DNA of 64,000 nt from Bacteroidota bacterium. Lineage in GTDB: Bacteria > Bacteroidota > Bacteroidia > Bacteroidales > SKPS01. The stretch covers positions 144,124-208,123 of the forward strand of contig JAKLII010000003.1 of the NCBI GenBank assembly GCA_022709695.1, read 5' to 3'. The translations under genes and the position numbers were made by a program. Under the pieces are notes generated by a model that made no database searches, had not been told where the DNA came from, and worked only from the letters and a program-made list of their open reading frames with translations. Shown here in pieces: positions 28,621 through 49,813 of this stretch (position 1 is its first letter; each line of letters opens with the position of its first letter).

Positions 28621-28679
28621 GAGTTAGGAGTTGGAAGTTAGGAGTTGAAGAAGTTGGGTTTTAACCCCGCTTGCGGGGT
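28621..28679 (+). repeat. short tandem repeat plus inverted repeat between sodB and nrfH
   Basis: Imperfect tandem GGAGTT(A/G)GGAAGTTA units (28621-28657) followed by the hairpin ACCCCGC-tt-GCGGGGT (28664-28679). The hairpin has no T tail, so it is not a clear terminator. Confidence 0.5.
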
Positions 28680-28727
28680 GAAATTATTATAGCTGTTTTA
28701 CAAGGAATAACATACAAAATTCGCGAT

Positions 28728-29315
28728 ATGAGAAAATTCTTCAGGTTTTTCATACCACCGGATCGATGGAGGGTTCCGGTGGTTGTAGCGCTGGGGGTTT
28801 TTACAGGGTTGTTTGCCTTTCTTTTTTACATATCGAAAGCGCATTCCTACCTGTCGGATAATCCGGAGACCTGCATGAACTGCCATATCATGGCGCCGCA
28901 GTATGCCACCTGGAGCCACAGCTCGCACCGCGAATCGGCCACCTGCACCGATTGCCACGTGCCGCACAACAACGTCTTCAACAAGTACTACTTCAAGGCG
29001 AAGGACGGATTGAGGCATGCCACCATCTTTACCCTGCGGAATGAGCCCCAGGTGATTTTCATCCGCGAGTCGGGGAAGCAGGCGGTGCAGGACAACTGCA
29101 TCCGCTGCCATACCTACCTGCTCACCGACGACCGGTTGCTTCTGAAAACAAGCGACTACAATCATTTCCGTACCGAAAGGCAATGCACCGAATGCCACCG
29201 TGAAACCCCGCACGGCAGGGTCAATTCGCTATCGAGCGTACCCTATGCAAGGGTACCCATCAAGCAGAGCCCGGTGCCAAAATGGATCTCAAATCTCGTG
29301 GACAAAGAGAAGTAA
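28728..29315 (+). CDS. nrfH: cytochrome c nitrite reductase small subunit NrfH
   Basis: 195 residues from the ATG at 28728 (MRKFFRFFIPP); a longer frame upstream adds 19 unrelated residues. One N-terminal transmembrane helix (about 15-36) anchors a NapC/NirT-type domain. Four heme c motifs: CMNCH (Cys49), CTDCH, CIRCH and CTECH. NrfH takes electrons from menaquinol in the membrane and passes them to NrfA in the periplasm. It lies 33 bp upstream of nrfA in the same operon. Confidence 0.93.
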   Translation: MRKFFRFFIPPDRWRVPVVVALGVFTGLFAFLFYISKAHSYLSDNPETCMNCHIMAPQYATWSHSSHRESATCTDCHVPHNNVFNKYYFKAKDGLRHATIFTLRNEPQVIFIRESGKQAVQDNCIRCHTYLLTDDRLLLKTSDYNHFRTERQCTECHRETPHGRVNSLSSVPYARVPIKQSPVPKWISNLVDKEK

Positions 29316-29348
29316 ATCAATACATTAACCATAACCAAAACGGAACGT

Positions 29349-30863
29349 ATGAAATCAATCAGAGAACAGATCAGCAACAAGCCCTGGCTGGGCTGGCTAT
29401 TGTTTGCCGCTACCCTGGTGATTGTGTTTTTCCTGGGCCTGCTGGCTTCCACCATCATGGAACGGAGGGCCGAAGCGATGTTTGCCTATACCCCGCAGGT
29501 GGAGTTTGAATCGTGGGAACCGCGCAGTGCAGTGTGGGGTGAAAATTTCCCCAGGGAATACCAGTCGTACCTGCAAACATCCGATACCACTTTCAGAAGT
29601 CAGTTTAACGGAAGCGCCATGATTGACATGCTGGAGGTTGACCCCAAGATGGTGGTGCTGTGGGCCGGTTATGCCTTTGCCAAGGATTACAACCAGGGGC
29701 GGGGACATTACTATGCCATTACCGATGTGTACAACACCCTGCGCACCGGCGGACCCAAAAAGCCGGAGGACGGACCACAGCCTGCTACCTGCTGGACCTG
29801 CAAGAGCCCCGATGTGGTAAGGATCATGGAACGGGATGGCGTGGAAGCATTCTACAAAAAAACCTGGGCGCAGCTGGGACCTGAGATCGTGAACTTTATC
29901 GGATGCAACGACTGTCACGATGCCAAAACCATGAACCTCCGCATCTCACGCCCTGCCCTGGTGGAGGCATTCCAGAAAATGGGAAAAGATGTAACCAAAT
30001 CTACCCATCAGGAGATGAGATCCCTGGTATGTGCCCAGTGCCACGTGGAATACTATTTCAACAAGAAAAGGGTTGAAGGAGCTGCCTGGCTCACTTTCCC
30101 GTGGGAGAAAGGTCTTACGGTTGAAAAAATGGAGGAATATTACGATGCCATTGAATTCTCTGACTGGACCCATGCCCTCAGCAAAGCCCCTATGCTGAAA
30201 GCTCAGCACCCTGATTATGAGATCTATAAAACAGGCGTGCATGCCGATCGCGGGGTTTCGTGTGCCGATTGCCACATGCCGTTTAAAAGCGAAGGGGGCC
30301 AGAAGTTCACAGACCACCACATGACCAGCCCCCTAAACAATGTAGCCAACAGCTGCCAGGTTTGTCACCGGGAAGAGACTGCCAAACTGATTGAAAACGT
30401 GTACCAGCGCCAGGAAAGGATCATTGAAATCCGTGACCAGCTTGAGCAGTTACTGGTGATGGCCCATGTGGAAGCAAAGAAGGCCTGGGATTTGGGCGCC
30501 ACCGAAGTTCAGATGAAGGAAATCCTGCAGGACATCCGCAAAGCGCAGTGGCGCTGGGATTTCTCTGCTGCCGGGCACGGATCCAGCTTCCATTCGCCGG
30601 TAGAAATGGCACGTGTGATCGGCAACGGCATCCGATTGGCACAGGATGCCCGGATCAAGCTCGCAAGGGTACTGGCAAAACTGGGTTTCAACGAAGCCAT
30701 TGCCTATCCCGATATCGCCACCAAAGCCAAAGCACAGCAGTTTATCGGGCTGCCGATGGAGGATCTGAGGAAGGAAAAGGCTGAATTCCTGCAAACGATG
30801 GTGCCCAAATGGCTGGAAGAGGCTGCAGCACGGGAGAAGAGCTATAAAGTCACCCGCATGTAG
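29349..30863 (+). CDS. nrfA: ammonia-forming cytochrome c nitrite reductase NrfA
   Basis: 504 residues with an N-terminal hydrophobic segment (about 13-33). The active-site heme is bound by CWTCK (Cys148), whose lysine replaces histidine as proximal ligand, the hallmark of NrfA. Four standard motifs follow: CNDCH, CAQCH, CADCH and CQVCH. It reduces nitrite to ammonium with six electrons, in the periplasm, and can also reduce NO or hydroxylamine. With NrfH it serves as a respiratory terminal reductase. Confidence 0.95.
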   Translation: MKSIREQISNKPWLGWLLFAATLVIVFFLGLLASTIMERRAEAMFAYTPQVEFESWEPRSAVWGENFPREYQSYLQTSDTTFRSQFNGSAMIDMLEVDPKMVVLWAGYAFAKDYNQGRGHYYAITDVYNTLRTGGPKKPEDGPQPATCWTCKSPDVVRIMERDGVEAFYKKTWAQLGPEIVNFIGCNDCHDAKTMNLRISRPALVEAFQKMGKDVTKSTHQEMRSLVCAQCHVEYYFNKKRVEGAAWLTFPWEKGLTVEKMEEYYDAIEFSDWTHALSKAPMLKAQHPDYEIYKTGVHADRGVSCADCHMPFKSEGGQKFTDHHMTSPLNNVANSCQVCHREETAKLIENVYQRQERIIEIRDQLEQLLVMAHVEAKKAWDLGATEVQMKEILQDIRKAQWRWDFSAAGHGSSFHSPVEMARVIGNGIRLAQDARIKLARVLAKLGFNEAIAYPDIATKAKAQQFIGLPMEDLRKEKAEFLQTMVPKWLEEAAAREKSYKVTRM

Positions 30864-33617: not shown

Positions 33618-34898
33618 CTAGAAAACAAACCCTGCATCAATGCTGATGGTACCGGCTTTGAAGCCATCGGAGCGCTGATAACGGGCGTACCTGAGGTCGA
33701 TGTACTTGAACGTCAGCTCCTGCTTTCCCCCGATTTTTTTCCGCCAGATGCCAAATACCGGTGATATGCGGGCTCCCAGGCCATATTTGTGCATGGTAAA
33801 TGCCGACAAATCATAATCGGAGGTGTAGTAAGGATTCAGAGGGGTAAACTGATCGTTCAGCGGGTGCTCCCCGAACGGCGCAAACCAGGTAACAGCATTC
33901 TGCCTGTAAAACCGGTAGTGGGGGTACACCATCAGCCAGCTCCCGACTTTTACCGGAAGTTCAAAACTGACCGTGTGCGACCTGATGCCAAAATCATCGA
34001 AATAGTAACGATAGTAAGCCCTTGCCACCAGATGATCCGTAAGGTAATACACCGCTCTGAGGCCTAACGGCACTTTAAACCTTGTCCGGGGAAGGCTTTC
34101 GGGGTACATGGTTTTAATGGCAAGCAACGGATTGGTATCCGGATTAAGAATGTTCAGTCCGTCATCAAAATAGACCCTGTGAAAAGGGGTATTCAGAATT
34201 CCGTTCTGGTATACCAGGTCGGTATGAAAGGCAAACTGAAACTTCCTTGTCAGCACCTGCGACCACGTAAATGAGAGGGTTCCGGTGGTTCTTCCATCCT
34301 GGTCATAATCATCCTCATCATTCCCGTACCTGTACTCATCCCCATTACGGATTTCACCGGGATAGATCAGCTTCCACCGGTCGTAGAAAACGCTGGCTTT
34401 TAAACCCAGATCGGTGTTCTCATTGTTGAAACTTCGGTTGTAGTGGTAGCCCAACGAAAAGGAGTTCACATCGAACTCGTTGCTGTAGCCTGCAAAGCCA
34501 CCCACAGAGGAGAATTTCCTCAGGTTTTTCCGGCTGTAATCCAAATCCACATGGGTACGTAAATCTTTACCTGATGCGGATGAGAGGTATTTTGAACTGG
34601 CAGAACTGATAAACCGGTCGATACGGTTGCACGAAGCAGAGGTGTAGTAATCTACCCCAAAGCTAAGGGTTAGGCTGTGTATGGTGTCGAAAGGCACATG
34701 CACAACGGTGAGCGGTGTGCTGCACTCCAGTTTTTCGGTGCCGATGCCTCCTGTAACCGGGCTATGGTTACCATCCTGTTCATAGTAATTGAACAAAAAG
34801 TTCACCTCTTTTTCGGTAAGTACTTTTACAGGAGCTGGCTGCTGGGCATAAGCCATACCGGCGAAAAGCAGGCTGAAAAGCAGAATTCTCAGTTGCAT
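33618..34898 (-). CDS. DUF3570 outer-membrane beta-barrel protein
   Basis: 426 residues from the ATG at 34898 (a GTG two codons earlier exists). Signal peptide MQLRILLFSLLFAGMAYA; then DUF3570 features: KVLTEKEVNFLFNYYEQDGNHSPVTGG, SLTLSFGVDYYTSASCNRID, SSASGKDLRTHVDLDYSRK, and repeated amphipathic strands to the C-terminal TISIDAGFVF. It is predicted to be an outer-membrane barrel. DUF3570 and DUF4266 genes are known to accompany ApbE flavin transferases, as here. Last gene of the five-gene cluster; its start overlaps the DUF4266 stop by 10 bp. Confidence 0.85.
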   Translation of the reverse strand: MQLRILLFSLLFAGMAYAQQPAPVKVLTEKEVNFLFNYYEQDGNHSPVTGGIGTEKLECSTPLTVVHVPFDTIHSLTLSFGVDYYTSASCNRIDRFISSASSKYLSSASGKDLRTHVDLDYSRKNLRKFSSVGGFAGYSNEFDVNSFSLGYHYNRSFNNENTDLGLKASVFYDRWKLIYPGEIRNGDEYRYGNDEDDYDQDGRTTGTLSFTWSQVLTRKFQFAFHTDLVYQNGILNTPFHRVYFDDGLNILNPDTNPLLAIKTMYPESLPRTRFKVPLGLRAVYYLTDHLVARAYYRYYFDDFGIRSHTVSFELPVKVGSWLMVYPHYRFYRQNAVTWFAPFGEHPLNDQFTPLNPYYTSDYDLSAFTMHKYGLGARISPVFGIWRKKIGGKQELTFKYIDLRYARYQRSDGFKAGTISIDAGFVF

Positions 34899-35098
34899 CC
34901 GCACCCCCCTCCTGTTTTACCGCCATTAGCTCCGCTGGACCCTTCACGATAGGATTCAACAGAAGTTTCAAACGACTCGAGTTTATGCGGACTGAGTTTC
35001 ATATCTTCATCATTCAGATACGCTTTCTGATACCCCTTGATATTTACACAGGATGTAAATGCAAGCAGAATCAGAATCAGTGCAATCAGTTTCTTCAT
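34889..35098 (-). CDS. DUF4266 lipoprotein
   Basis: 69 residues. Lipoprotein signal with Cys17 (LLAFTSC). The mature part has the DUF4266 core VNIKGYQKAYLNDEDMKL, a helical ESFETSVESYREGSSG stretch and a glycine/cysteine tail GGGCGCN. It starts after a 3-bp gap from the apbE stop and overlaps the DUF3570 start by 10 bp. The N-terminal lipid would place it at a membrane facing the periplasm or surface; probably a partner of the DUF3570 barrel. Function not established. Confidence 0.85.
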   Translation of the reverse strand: MKKLIALILILLAFTSCVNIKGYQKAYLNDEDMKLSPHKLESFETSVESYREGSSGANGGKTGGGCGCN

Positions 35099-35101
35099 GC
35101 G

Positions 35102-36136
35102 TTATTTTTCTCCGTTGATGGTATGTATGGTGCTGGCTTTGCCTTTGTTCAACTGAATATGGCTGGAGGTAAAGAACTGGCCTGCATCATCCAGGATAAC
35201 ACATTCTACCCCTTTCAGCTGGTTGATCAGGGCAAGGCCTCTCTCTCTGCCCATCACAAATACCGAAGTCGACAAGGCATCGGCCAGTTCAGCATCAGGG
35301 CAGATGATGGTTACACTCTGAAGGCCCGACACCGGGTACCCGCTGGCAGGATTGATGATATGGCAGTACCGTTTGCCCCCGATCACCACAAAGCGCTCAT
35401 AGTTGCCGGAAGTTACCACCGCTGCCTCACCTACCTCGAGCCATGCCACTGCCTGACCGGGATCGGAGGGGTTGGAGATACCGATAGGCCAGAGCTTTCC
35501 CTCTTCAGGGTGTCCCCAGGTAATCAGGTCTCCACCGGCGATGACGATGCCATTCGACACCCCCATTTTCTGCATCACGTTGCGGGCGCAGTTGGCAGCA
35601 TACCCTTTGCCGATGGCACCAAGCCCGATCGCCATCCCTTTTTTGACAAGAAAGATGGAACTGTCGGATTCGTTGATAAGTATGTTTCTGTAGTTGATGT
35701 AGGGAAGCACCGAATCAATCACCGCGGGATCCGGCAGTGAGGTCATCGAACCGTCAAACCGCCAGATCCCTCTGGCAGAAGCCCAGGTGATATCAAAGGC
35801 CCCGTCGGTGAGTTCTGATACTTTAATACAACGCTTTATCAGTCCCAGCAGTTCACCCGACACCTGCACAGGCCTGATGCCCGAATTGCGGTTTACTTCT
35901 GAAATTTTACTTTCCGGTATCCACTCCGAGATCAGGGTCTCTATCCTTCTGATTTCGGCAATGGCAGCTGCAATGGCCGCTTCATTAAGGCTGTCGGATG
36001 GGGAGTAGGGGGTGATCTCAAACCGGGATCCCATCAGCAAGAGTGTTTCTGTGCGATGACGGAGTTGTGCCTGTACCATGTGGCCGGCCAGGATCAGCAA
36101 TAATGCTGAAAGCAGGGAGATTTTCCTACCAGGCAT
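35102..36136 (-). CDS. apbE: FAD:protein FMN transferase ApbE
   Basis: 344 residues from the ATG at 36136, chosen because it gives a signal/anchor (MPGRKISLLSALLLILAG) and overlaps the upstream stop by 11 bp; a longer frame runs through the neighbour. ApbE motifs: LLMGSRFEIT at the start of the domain, SELTDGAFDIT, GLGAIGKGYAAN with the flavin-contacting region, IVIAGGD, and SGNYERF with HIINPASGYPVSG near the active site. ApbE moves FMN from FAD onto a threonine or serine of target proteins outside the cytoplasm. The DUF2271 gene upstream contains such a target motif. Confidence 0.93.
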   Translation of the reverse strand: MPGRKISLLSALLLILAGHMVQAQLRHRTETLLLMGSRFEITPYSPSDSLNEAAIAAAIAEIRRIETLISEWIPESKISEVNRNSGIRPVQVSGELLGLIKRCIKVSELTDGAFDITWASARGIWRFDGSMTSLPDPAVIDSVLPYINYRNILINESDSSIFLVKKGMAIGLGAIGKGYAANCARNVMQKMGVSNGIVIAGGDLITWGHPEEGKLWPIGISNPSDPGQAVAWLEVGEAAVVTSGNYERFVVIGGKRYCHIINPASGYPVSGLQSVTIICPDAELADALSTSVFVMGRERGLALINQLKGVECVILDDAGQFFTSSHIQLNKGKASTIHTINGEK

Positions 36137-36893
36137 GCGCCAGTTTTCCGGTATAGGTGGTTTTCTGCGTGGTGATGGAATAGATATAAACGCCCTTTGT
36201 TTTTTCTGCATCCCAGCTGAAGACAAGGTAATTTCCCGCAGATACAGGTGATTTTTCATGGTAAACCAACTGCCCCTGCAGGTTATAAACTGCCAGTTCA
36301 GCCCTGCCGGTTTTATCATCAGGAATACTGAAGGTGATGGTTTTCCCGTGGGTGATCACTGTGGCCCGGGCCTCAGCTTCATTTTTTCCGATGCCGTTGG
36401 GCTGAGGTGTATAGGTTATGTTCACCCCTGAAAACTTCGATTGGTTGGGATAATTGGTATTTACGGCAGAGGTGGATTTATTAAAATCGAAGTGGGCATA
36501 AGGTCCCTGCGCATCAGCATCGGCGAACTCAATCCAGAACTGGTAGGTGCCATCCGGCACCACGTTGTTGTTCAGGTCTTTGCAGTTCCAGGTGATGGTA
36601 TGGGTCTGATGTGACGTGAGTGTAGCCCCGGTAATGGCATCCACGGTGTTGAGGCTGCTGGAAGCTTTCCATTGATACAGATACTTGGTTTCCTTCTGCG
36701 ACATCATTTTTGAGGTGCGGATAAAGGTACCCGAACTGTTTTTGATCCAGATGGCCAGTACATGATTTGGCGCATATTTTCCTCCGTTGGCAGTAGTGGT
36801 TACGGTGAACGTAACGGTTCCGGGAGTGTTTTGTCCCCGGGCAAGAATGGATCCCAGGAGTAACGAAAGTACTACGATGGTCAGTTGTTTCAT
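36126..36893 (-). CDS. DUF2271 protein with flavinylation motif and T9SS-like C-terminus
   Basis: 255 residues. Signal peptide MKQLTIVVLSLLLGSILARG; DUF2271 domain about 23-165 (GTVTFTVTTTANGGKYAPNHVLAIWI, TYQFWIEFADADAQGPYAHF). Within it, DAITGAT at residues 85-91 fits the ApbE recognition pattern D-x2-(S/T)-G-A-(S/T), with Thr91 the expected FMN site. The last 75 residues resemble a T9SS type A sorting domain (AELAVYNLQGQLVYH, GVYIYSITTQKTTYTGKLAHAW). It overlaps thioredoxin upstream by 4 bp and apbE downstream by 11 bp. Inferred role: a surface flavoprotein electron carrier. Confidence 0.85.
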   Translation of the reverse strand: MKQLTIVVLSLLLGSILARGQNTPGTVTFTVTTTANGGKYAPNHVLAIWIKNSSGTFIRTSKMMSQKETKYLYQWKASSSLNTVDAITGATLTSHQTHTITWNCKDLNNNVVPDGTYQFWIEFADADAQGPYAHFDFNKSTSAVNTNYPNQSKFSGVNITYTPQPNGIGKNEAEARATVITHGKTITFSIPDDKTGRAELAVYNLQGQLVYHEKSPVSAGNYLVFSWDAEKTKGVYIYSITTQKTTYTGKLAHAW

Positions 36894-37369
36894 AAAGAAG
36901 CGGATTGTAACAGTTTTGTAATCAAAAGGATAAATTCTCCGGTGGATTGATTGTGAAACTCCACGTTGCCGATCACTTTCTCATCAGGGGTCAATACCAG
37001 AAACAGCGGAAAAAACCCGGCAGAGTTATACCGTTCTGCCAGCATTTCATTCTGCTTAACTATTTCCCCGGGTAAGGCATTTTTTTTCTGCCTCGGAAAG
37101 TCGACCGAAACCAAAACCGCATTTTTCTTCGCCCAAACCGAAAAAGAGTCGGTAACGAGCACCTCTTCATGCAGCCTGATGCATGGTTTACACCAGTCGG
37201 AGCCACTGAAAACCAGGATCAGGGGTAGTGAATCCTTTTGAGCCATGACAAGTGCCTCATCGTACCGGGTATGCCAGAGGGTACTGTCGAAGGGTGTAAA
37301 CTGCTGACATTTAGCAGAAAAGGGAAGTGACAGAAGCAGGATGACACCTGCATATTTAGATATCTTCAT
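36890..37369 (-). CDS. exported thioredoxin-like protein
   Basis: 159 residues. N-terminal signal (MKISKYAGVILLLSLPFSAK), then a thioredoxin fold with active site WCKPC (Cys60, Cys63) in SGSDWCKPCIRLHEEVL, and the cis-Pro region SAGFFPLFLVLTPD. It should reduce or hold thiols in the periplasm. First gene of the flavinylation cluster; its stop overlaps the DUF2271 start by four bases (ATGA), so all five genes are probably co-translated. Likely keeps cysteines in the cluster's proteins reduced or shuttles electrons. Confidence 0.88.
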   Translation of the reverse strand: MKISKYAGVILLLSLPFSAKCQQFTPFDSTLWHTRYDEALVMAQKDSLPLILVFSGSDWCKPCIRLHEEVLVTDSFSVWAKKNAVLVSVDFPRQKKNALPGEIVKQNEMLAERYNSAGFFPLFLVLTPDEKVIGNVEFHNQSTGEFILLITKLLQSASL

Positions 37370-48958: not shown

Positions 48959-49813
48959 TTATTGCTTGATCCCCTTTAATATCTGCCTTTCATTAACCCT
49001 GATCCACAAAACCCCCAAAGGCCAGTCCCGGGTATCAATCCGGTAGGTACCGGCAGGATCGCAGGGGAGGGTGAGTTCCCTGAAAAGCTGTCCGTTATGC
49101 AGAAAAACCTCCAGTGTAACCGGGCTGTTACCGGGTTGGATGGTCATGATTTGCAAAACATTTGCAAACGGGTTCGGCCAACAATTTATCCGGGGTTCAG
49201 CCTGTGCTTCAGGTACTGCCTGCGGCCCCTGAAACAGGGCTAAGCTGGTTTTGAACACTTCATCATCCACATCAAAAACACCGGTCACCACTGCCGCGTA
49301 CAGGGTAACCGAGGTAACCGAAGGATCGGACGGCGCCACCCACTTGCATTGCCAGCTTTTCTGGTTGTTACCGGTGGTACCTGTCTCCTTGTGCGTAATA
49401 TATCCCGTCCCCTGCGACAGTTGGGTTTGCAGCGGATCGGTAACTACAAATCCGCCCTCGGTTCCGCTCACTCCCTGGGTGGCCATCTGAAACCCAAACC
49501 GGGTGGTGGCGGGCCTGCTGGCTGTAAGGGTTACGGTGTAGGTGTCAGCCGGCTGATATCCGGCTGCCGGCACATCGGTGGTAATCCATCCGTTTACCGT
49601 ACTCACCGGTCCCCGGTGGCACCCCATGGTGGCACAGGTGATGCCATCCACCGGAGATCCGGTGTACCCCGGTGGAACCCCATAGATGCTGGACCACAGT
49701 TTGGTCACCATCACCACCAACAGAGTCACCAAACCCAGTGCGGTGCTGAGGTACCGAATCCTGGCCATCTGCGCCATTTTTCCCCGGAATCCCCCGGTAA
49801 AAGCCTCCCTCAT
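48959..49813 (-). CDS. choice-of-anchor-V-like exported protein with T9SS sorting domain
   Basis: 284 residues from the ATG at 49813; ATGs at 49777 or 49768 (MARIRYLSTALGLVTLLVV) may be the true start since they give a tighter signal anchor. The domain GVPPGYTGSPVDGITCATMGCHRGP opens the Reeler-like choice-of-anchor-V region, with a CATMGCH cysteine-histidine motif. The tail RINCWPNPFANVLQIM, VEVFLHNGQL-like strand and GVLWIRVNERQILKGIK is T9SS type A. Secreted to the surface; ligand unknown. Antisense to its neighbours and separate from the dsrC operon. Confidence 0.75.
   Translation of the reverse strand: MREAFTGGFRGKMAQMARIRYLSTALGLVTLLVVMVTKLWSSIYGVPPGYTGSPVDGITCATMGCHRGPVSTVNGWITTDVPAAGYQPADTYTVTLTASRPATTRFGFQMATQGVSGTEGGFVVTDPLQTQLSQGTGYITHKETGTTGNNQKSWQCKWVAPSDPSVTSVTLYAAVVTGVFDVDDEVFKTSLALFQGPQAVPEAQAEPRINCWPNPFANVLQIMTIQPGNSPVTLEVFLHNGQLFRELTLPCDPAGTYRIDTRDWPLGVLWIRVNERQILKGIKQ

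Follow-up and report, generated by a model that had tools for sequence, protein, structure and literature searches.

ApbE flavoproteins are known from the inner membrane, the periplasm and the Gram-positive cell surface, and T9SS C-terminal domains (CTDs) direct export in species other than the one considered here. Clusters of ApbE, DUF3570, thioredoxin and DUF4266 genes, with or without DsbD, were described by Meheust et al. (2021) (PMC8238504); 316 clusters without a linked DsbD were counted in this survey, and a hybrid thioredoxin/flavin system taking electrons from DsbD was proposed. T9SS is not mentioned in the survey. A DUF2271 domain is experimentally flavinylated by ApbE in another species, and DUF3570 is a verified ApbE substrate in Chlorobium luteolum, with sites of the form [ST]GA[ST] (PMC8238504). 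The ApbE target motif, D-[GAIQ]-[IALVF]-[ST]-G-A-[ST], has been defined experimentally (PMC10722498). According to a review that does not mention flavin or cofactor (PMC10202324), T9SS cargo probably folds in the periplasm prior to export. Literature searches combining T9SS with flavinylation or surface electron transfer retrieved no description of a flavinylated T9SS cargo; the two terms occur together in a single paper, in which flavinylation stands in a cited title.

The window analysed here, a stretch of 64,000 nucleotides from a Bacteroidota assembly (3.39 Mb, 98% complete), displays five open reading frames (ORFs) on the minus strand at 33618-37369, in the order thioredoxin, DUF2271, ApbE, DUF4266, DUF3570 (Table 1). 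An initial annotation had described these genes as overlapping or abutting on one strand, which proves correct: thioredoxin shares 4 bp with DUF2271 (36890-36893), the DUF2271 stop overlaps ApbE by 8 bp provided that Met63 of the ApbE ORF (36133) is the start, ApbE and DUF4266 are separated by 3 bp, and the end of DUF4266 runs 16 bp into DUF3570. Met63 is the most likely start of ApbE and yields a normal-looking signal peptide; the conserved catalytic Ser, His and Asp are retained. Pfam scores, each given against the curated cut-off, are 280.8 vs 25.6 bits for ApbE, 115.5 vs 25 for DUF3570, 66.8 vs 27 for DUF4266, 36.1 vs 27 for Thioredoxin_7 and 34.9 vs 27.3 for DUF2271. DUF4266 ends in GGGCGCN, i.e. 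CxC is present, and a thioredoxin family member also heads the four-gene operon in other genomes. A convergent acetyltransferase gene is located 3′ of the operon and two M24 aminopeptidase genes 5′ of it; among the scanned neighbours (the acetyltransferase, two epimerases and the two M24 aminopeptidases) there is no PepSY or DUF4198 gene. The opposite strand carries, at a distance of about 3 kb, genes for an ammonia-forming nitrite reductase, nrfH-nrfA (window 28671-30863, plus strand).

Table 1. Features of the five-gene operon (positions in the window).
Feature	Position	Strand	Basis and remarks
Thioredoxin-like periplasmic protein	36890..37369	-	Thioredoxin_7 PF13899; active-site sequence CKPC; signal peptide judged by eye
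DUF2271 protein with T9SS type A C-terminal domain, 255 aa	36126..36893	-	PF10029, TIGR04183
ApbE target motif DAITGAT, residues 85-91, Thr91 being the predicted FMN site	36621..36641	-	
T9SS C-terminal sorting domain, about residues 175-255	36129..36371	-	TIGR04183, profile, fold
ApbE FAD:protein FMN transferase	35102..36133	-	PF02424; ORF opens 36319, likely start Met63
DUF4266 small lipoprotein, C-x-C end (CGCN)	34889..35098	-	PF14086
DUF3570 predicted outer-membrane beta-barrel, three [ST]SAS sites	33618..34904	-	PF12094

The DAITGAT sequence at residues 85-91 of the DUF2271 protein had been put forward as an ApbE site, and this holds up well: it is an exact fit to the experimentally defined motif, in a domain that is a shown substrate elsewhere (PMC8238504). 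Calculated from composition, D-x2-[ST]GA[ST] is expected about 0.0009 times in 255 residues, and none of the 50 other window ORFs included in the count contains it. Neither G89 nor T91 varies across an alignment of 16 homologues that were gathered via protein similarity and not via the motif. A pattern search of named genomes returned 80 loci; since the search pattern contained the ApbE motif, conservation of the motif across these loci is circular and is not used as evidence. With this domain and this motif, the DUF2271 protein may plausibly be taken as a target of ApbE. An AlphaFold2 model of the protein displays two beta domains (mean pLDDT 91.3), for which Foldseek returns mostly generic Ig-like matches over both domains.

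A type A T9SS-like C-terminus had been claimed for the same protein, with a profile search against T9SS type A models suggested as a check. TIGR04183 (NCBIfam, T9SS type A) scores 34.6 bits against a cut-off of 23, and Pfam CHU_C likewise passes (31.4 vs 27); Pfam PF18962 Por_Secre_tail stays below its cut-off (22.8 vs 27), and the usual PNP start is missing. Because CHU_C and TIGR04183 pass and Por_Secre_tail fails, the profiles identify what is a real but somewhat divergent T9SS tail. One homologue (L139) scores 49.4 for Por_Secre_tail. A family profile search ranks solved T9SS CTDs first (8glk, E 9e-12; also 8glj). Modelled residues 175-254 superpose on T9SS CTDs (8qb1, Z 9.2; 8glk, Z 9.0; 5ag8, Z 8.5), with the CTDs of mirolase, RgpB and NucA as fold matches, and many unrelated Ig-like domains reach similar Z. 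This structure comparison covered mainly the CTD part. Profile score and fold together uphold the type A assignment, with the Por_Secre_tail result as its qualification.

The host has a T9SS: the genome encodes the PorU sortase (1344.8 vs 420 bits) and about 150 genes with a TIGR04183 tail among the matches listed. Given so many tails, the presence of a single tailed gene among the five of the operon might be coincidence. A protein search over 395 genomes of the class retrieved clear homologues of DUF2271 at 11 further places (E-values of 1e-11 or lower), the majority of these alignments extending into the tail, and a search of 60 closer relatives added five more genomes with a homologue. TIGR04183 matches 15 of the 16 aligned homologues (best E 3.9e-13), the exception being lipoprotein-like; among the six operon homologues, two (L128, L169) are below the cut-off. 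Chance co-location is ruled out by these tails together with the recurrence of the five-gene operon. Since domain and tail are kept together in 15 of the 16 homologues, their pairing is more than chance. The initial annotation had singled out the combination on one polypeptide as unusual; it is rather a recurring family, present in many genomes. DUF2271 domains on planctomycete- or PVC-labelled contigs are joined to dockerin-like, CARDB or LVIVD parts and have no T9SS tail, and these relatives are a natural control. One PVC-labelled locus (L145:6036-8909) encodes three DUF2271 domains (DAITGAT, DAVTGAT, DAVTGAT) in one frame of 957 residues, possibly a multi-flavinylated protein. A plasmid search gave nothing useful, and the one genus-mate examined (86% complete) has no DUF2271 or DUF4266 match.

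Three contexts of DUF2271-T9SS genes are found: in the DUF3570 operon, beside a distinct ApbE clade, and alone, many homologues adjoining no ApbE or DUF3570. The full five-gene operon is present in 4 of the 80 further loci, i.e. L127, L128, L139 (identical to L087) and L137, the last with DUF2271 before thioredoxin; in L169 it is truncated. The DUF2271-T9SS gene is convergent with the separate, fully supported ApbE clade in about 22 loci, which belong for the most part to Crocinitomicaceae and other Flavobacteriales-like MAGs. About half of these loci also encode a CxxCH lipoprotein together with a DUF5777 barrel, and most of this half have YceI as well. Two Bacteroidales loci (L142, L147) have the order lipoprotein-DUF5777-DUF2271 without ApbE. 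A recurrent cluster comprises a DUF5777 barrel, a small CxxCH lipoprotein, DUF2271-T9SS and the distinct ApbE clade, often YceI and often a TPR protein (L182, L183, L184, L188, L193, L198, L199, L204 and L206; also L194, L196 and, lacking the ApbE clade, L142 and L147). The literature searched contains no mention of DUF5777.

The ApbE tree spreads the operon members over three positions, with well-supported branches that require a minimum of two changes; in the DUF2271 tree, L137 groups with solitary genes, apart from the group of the window. Going by these trees, DUF2271 probably joined the DUF3570 operon at least twice, the alternative being frequent loss. In three further loci, thioredoxin and ApbE are separated by inserts of about 600-700 bp, which were considered as candidate DUF2271 genes and rejected: here the slot of DUF2271 is filled by another secreted protein, about 220 aa long (L115:5451-6113, L117:5270-5947, L120:9651-10316). 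Elsewhere in the window, a minus-strand gene (48959-49813) encodes a choice-of-anchor V protein (81.3 vs 42 bits) with CATMGCH as a possible haem-like motif; its tail appears T9SS-like by eye and has no TIGR04183 match at the threshold used. This protein is a second candidate surface redox protein.

DUF3570 had been taken for an outer-membrane barrel. By its model it looks like one: outer-membrane barrel proteins make up all 50 matches listed, for a model of low confidence (mean pLDDT 62). The barrel part of the claim is kept; as the family is also a verified ApbE substrate elsewhere, DUF3570 would not be merely a barrel. In place of [ST]GA[ST] it reads TSAS, SSAS and SSAS at residues 88-91, 100-103 and 108-111. 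Most Bacteroidia DUF3570s examined, with or without DUF2271, also lack the two [ST]GA[ST] and read similar [ST]SAS, which leaves unsupported the idea that DUF3570 lost its sites since DUF2271 took over. In the DUF3570s of DUF2271-bearing operons (window, L087, L127, L128), the loop is mostly longer and holds three [ST]SAS-like sites rather than two. In another flavoprotein, replacement of the motif Gly by Ala retained about 50% of flavinylation (PMC12052999).

Two ApbEs are encoded in the genome, that of the operon and one on another contig (C20), where an FMN_bind gene, probably nqrC, lies about 3 kb away. Because the second ApbE is located near this gene, the operon's ApbE is probably dedicated to the operon, and a role of the latter as NQR/RNF housekeeping enzyme appears unlikely. 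DsbD is unlinked to the operon: the window lies on contig C15, and the DsbD_TM genes, a long DsbD-like one (732-codon frame) and a short CcdA-like one, lie on C12 and C19, respectively.

Based on this dataset, we are inclined to think that the operon is a DsbD-type flavinylation module extended by a flavin carrier that the T9SS exports for electron exchange at the surface. The DUF2271 protein would enter the periplasm through Sec, where the operon's ApbE would attach FMN to Thr91; periplasmic folding before export would give ApbE time to act. The folded protein would then be taken by the T9SS through its CTD and, once cleaved by PorU, end up at the cell surface, released or anchored, where its flavin may trade electrons with external acceptors or donors. 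Electrons might run from DsbD, encoded elsewhere, to the periplasmic thioredoxin, on to the DUF4266 CxC lipoprotein and possibly to the DUF3570 barrel. We infer the modification and export of the DUF2271 protein, the contacts between the parts and the direction of electron flow, and likewise its surface exposure and any physical linkage to DUF3570 or DUF4266.

A different reading would have the CTD as an Ig-like, FlgD-type structural domain with no working T9SS signal, and the DUF2271 protein as a periplasmic flavin carrier resembling those in other DUF2271 systems. FlgD_ig is the top Pfam family for the whole protein (47.3 bits), with its best stretch, residues 92-122, in the DUF2271 part, and the low Por_Secre_tail score and the unrelated Ig-like domains of similar Z may be counted on the same side. 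However, TIGR04183 and CHU_C are over their cut-offs, with the TIGR04183 E-values of homologues reaching 3.9e-13, solved T9SS CTDs top the profile search, and the planctomycete and PVC relatives have no tail; we consider this reading improbable. Even less probable to us is that the operon's ApbE acts on the [ST]SAS sites of DUF3570, with DUF2271 as a minor substrate or none, although ApbE verifiably modifies DUF3570 in Chlorobium luteolum (PMC8238504), four-gene clusters with ApbE and a [ST]SAS DUF3570 and no DUF2271 are common, and the Gly to Ala change mentioned above leaves about half of the flavinylation (PMC12052999). It is DUF2271 that has the canonical DAITGAT, with its threonine kept in the homologues, and the DUF3570 sites with Ser in place of Gly are putative.

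It is also conceivable, if on the unlikely side, that the DUF2271 protein is flavinylated and exported, yet acts at the surface by itself, physically unconnected to DUF3570 or DUF4266, perhaps as a reductase of iron or quinones fed by soluble shuttles, the operon serving only for co-regulation. The many DUF2271-T9SS genes without DUF3570 or any ApbE would fit such a role, whereas the fact that DUF2271 came to the same operon more than once, apparently independently, speaks against it, as does the repeated pairing with a barrel and a redox lipoprotein in the other context.

Returning to the flavinylation module with an exported carrier, the recurrence of DUF2271-T9SS beside barrels and redox lipoproteins suggests an undescribed flavin-based electron transfer out of the cell, and the data point to a wider family of T9SS-tailed flavoproteins in Bacteroidota, apparently undescribed. 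Tentatively, and with more doubt than confidence, we hypothesize a Bacteroidota flavin conduit across the outer membrane, composed of a barrel, either DUF3570 or DUF5777, a small redox lipoprotein with a CxC thiol or a CxxCH haem, and a DUF2271 protein that ApbE flavinylates and the T9SS places on the outer face. If true, such a conduit would do the work done elsewhere by surface multihaem cytochromes. A T9SS tail on an ApbE target, if true, would mean that a Gram-negative cell displays covalently bound flavin on its outer face. Electron exchange with minerals, iron or quinones outside the cell would become directly testable, as would the question whether the T9SS exports cofactor-loaded, folded redox proteins.

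Compared with the PepSY-DUF2271-ApbE-DUF4198 systems (PMC8238504), the locus shares DUF2271 as ApbE substrate; it differs in that there is no PepSY or DUF4198 neighbour and that DUF2271 has an export tail. With T9SS type A cargo (PMC10202324) it shares the TIGR04183 tail, the Ig-like CTD and PorU in the genome. The association of DUF4266 and DUF3570 with ApbE, which the initial annotation had attributed to flavinylation surveys, is that of the published DsbD-type cluster (PMC8238504). Here, the same four families are found over cut-off and in the order seen in other genomes, with CxC in DUF4266; the locus differs from this cluster in the extra, T9SS-tailed DUF2271 between thioredoxin and ApbE, in the [ST]SAS sites of DUF3570 instead of two [ST]GA[ST], and in the unlinked DsbD. 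Because the cluster minus DUF2271 is the published DsbD-type system, the thiol pathway is the likely electron source. MtrCAB-type conduits resemble the locus by analogy of layout, in that a barrel, a periplasmic-side redox partner and a surface redox protein are combined; there is no homology, multihaem cytochromes are absent here, and the surface carrier would be a T9SS-exported flavoprotein. A DUF2271 protein with a T9SS tail, added to a DsbD-type cluster, is apparently undescribed.
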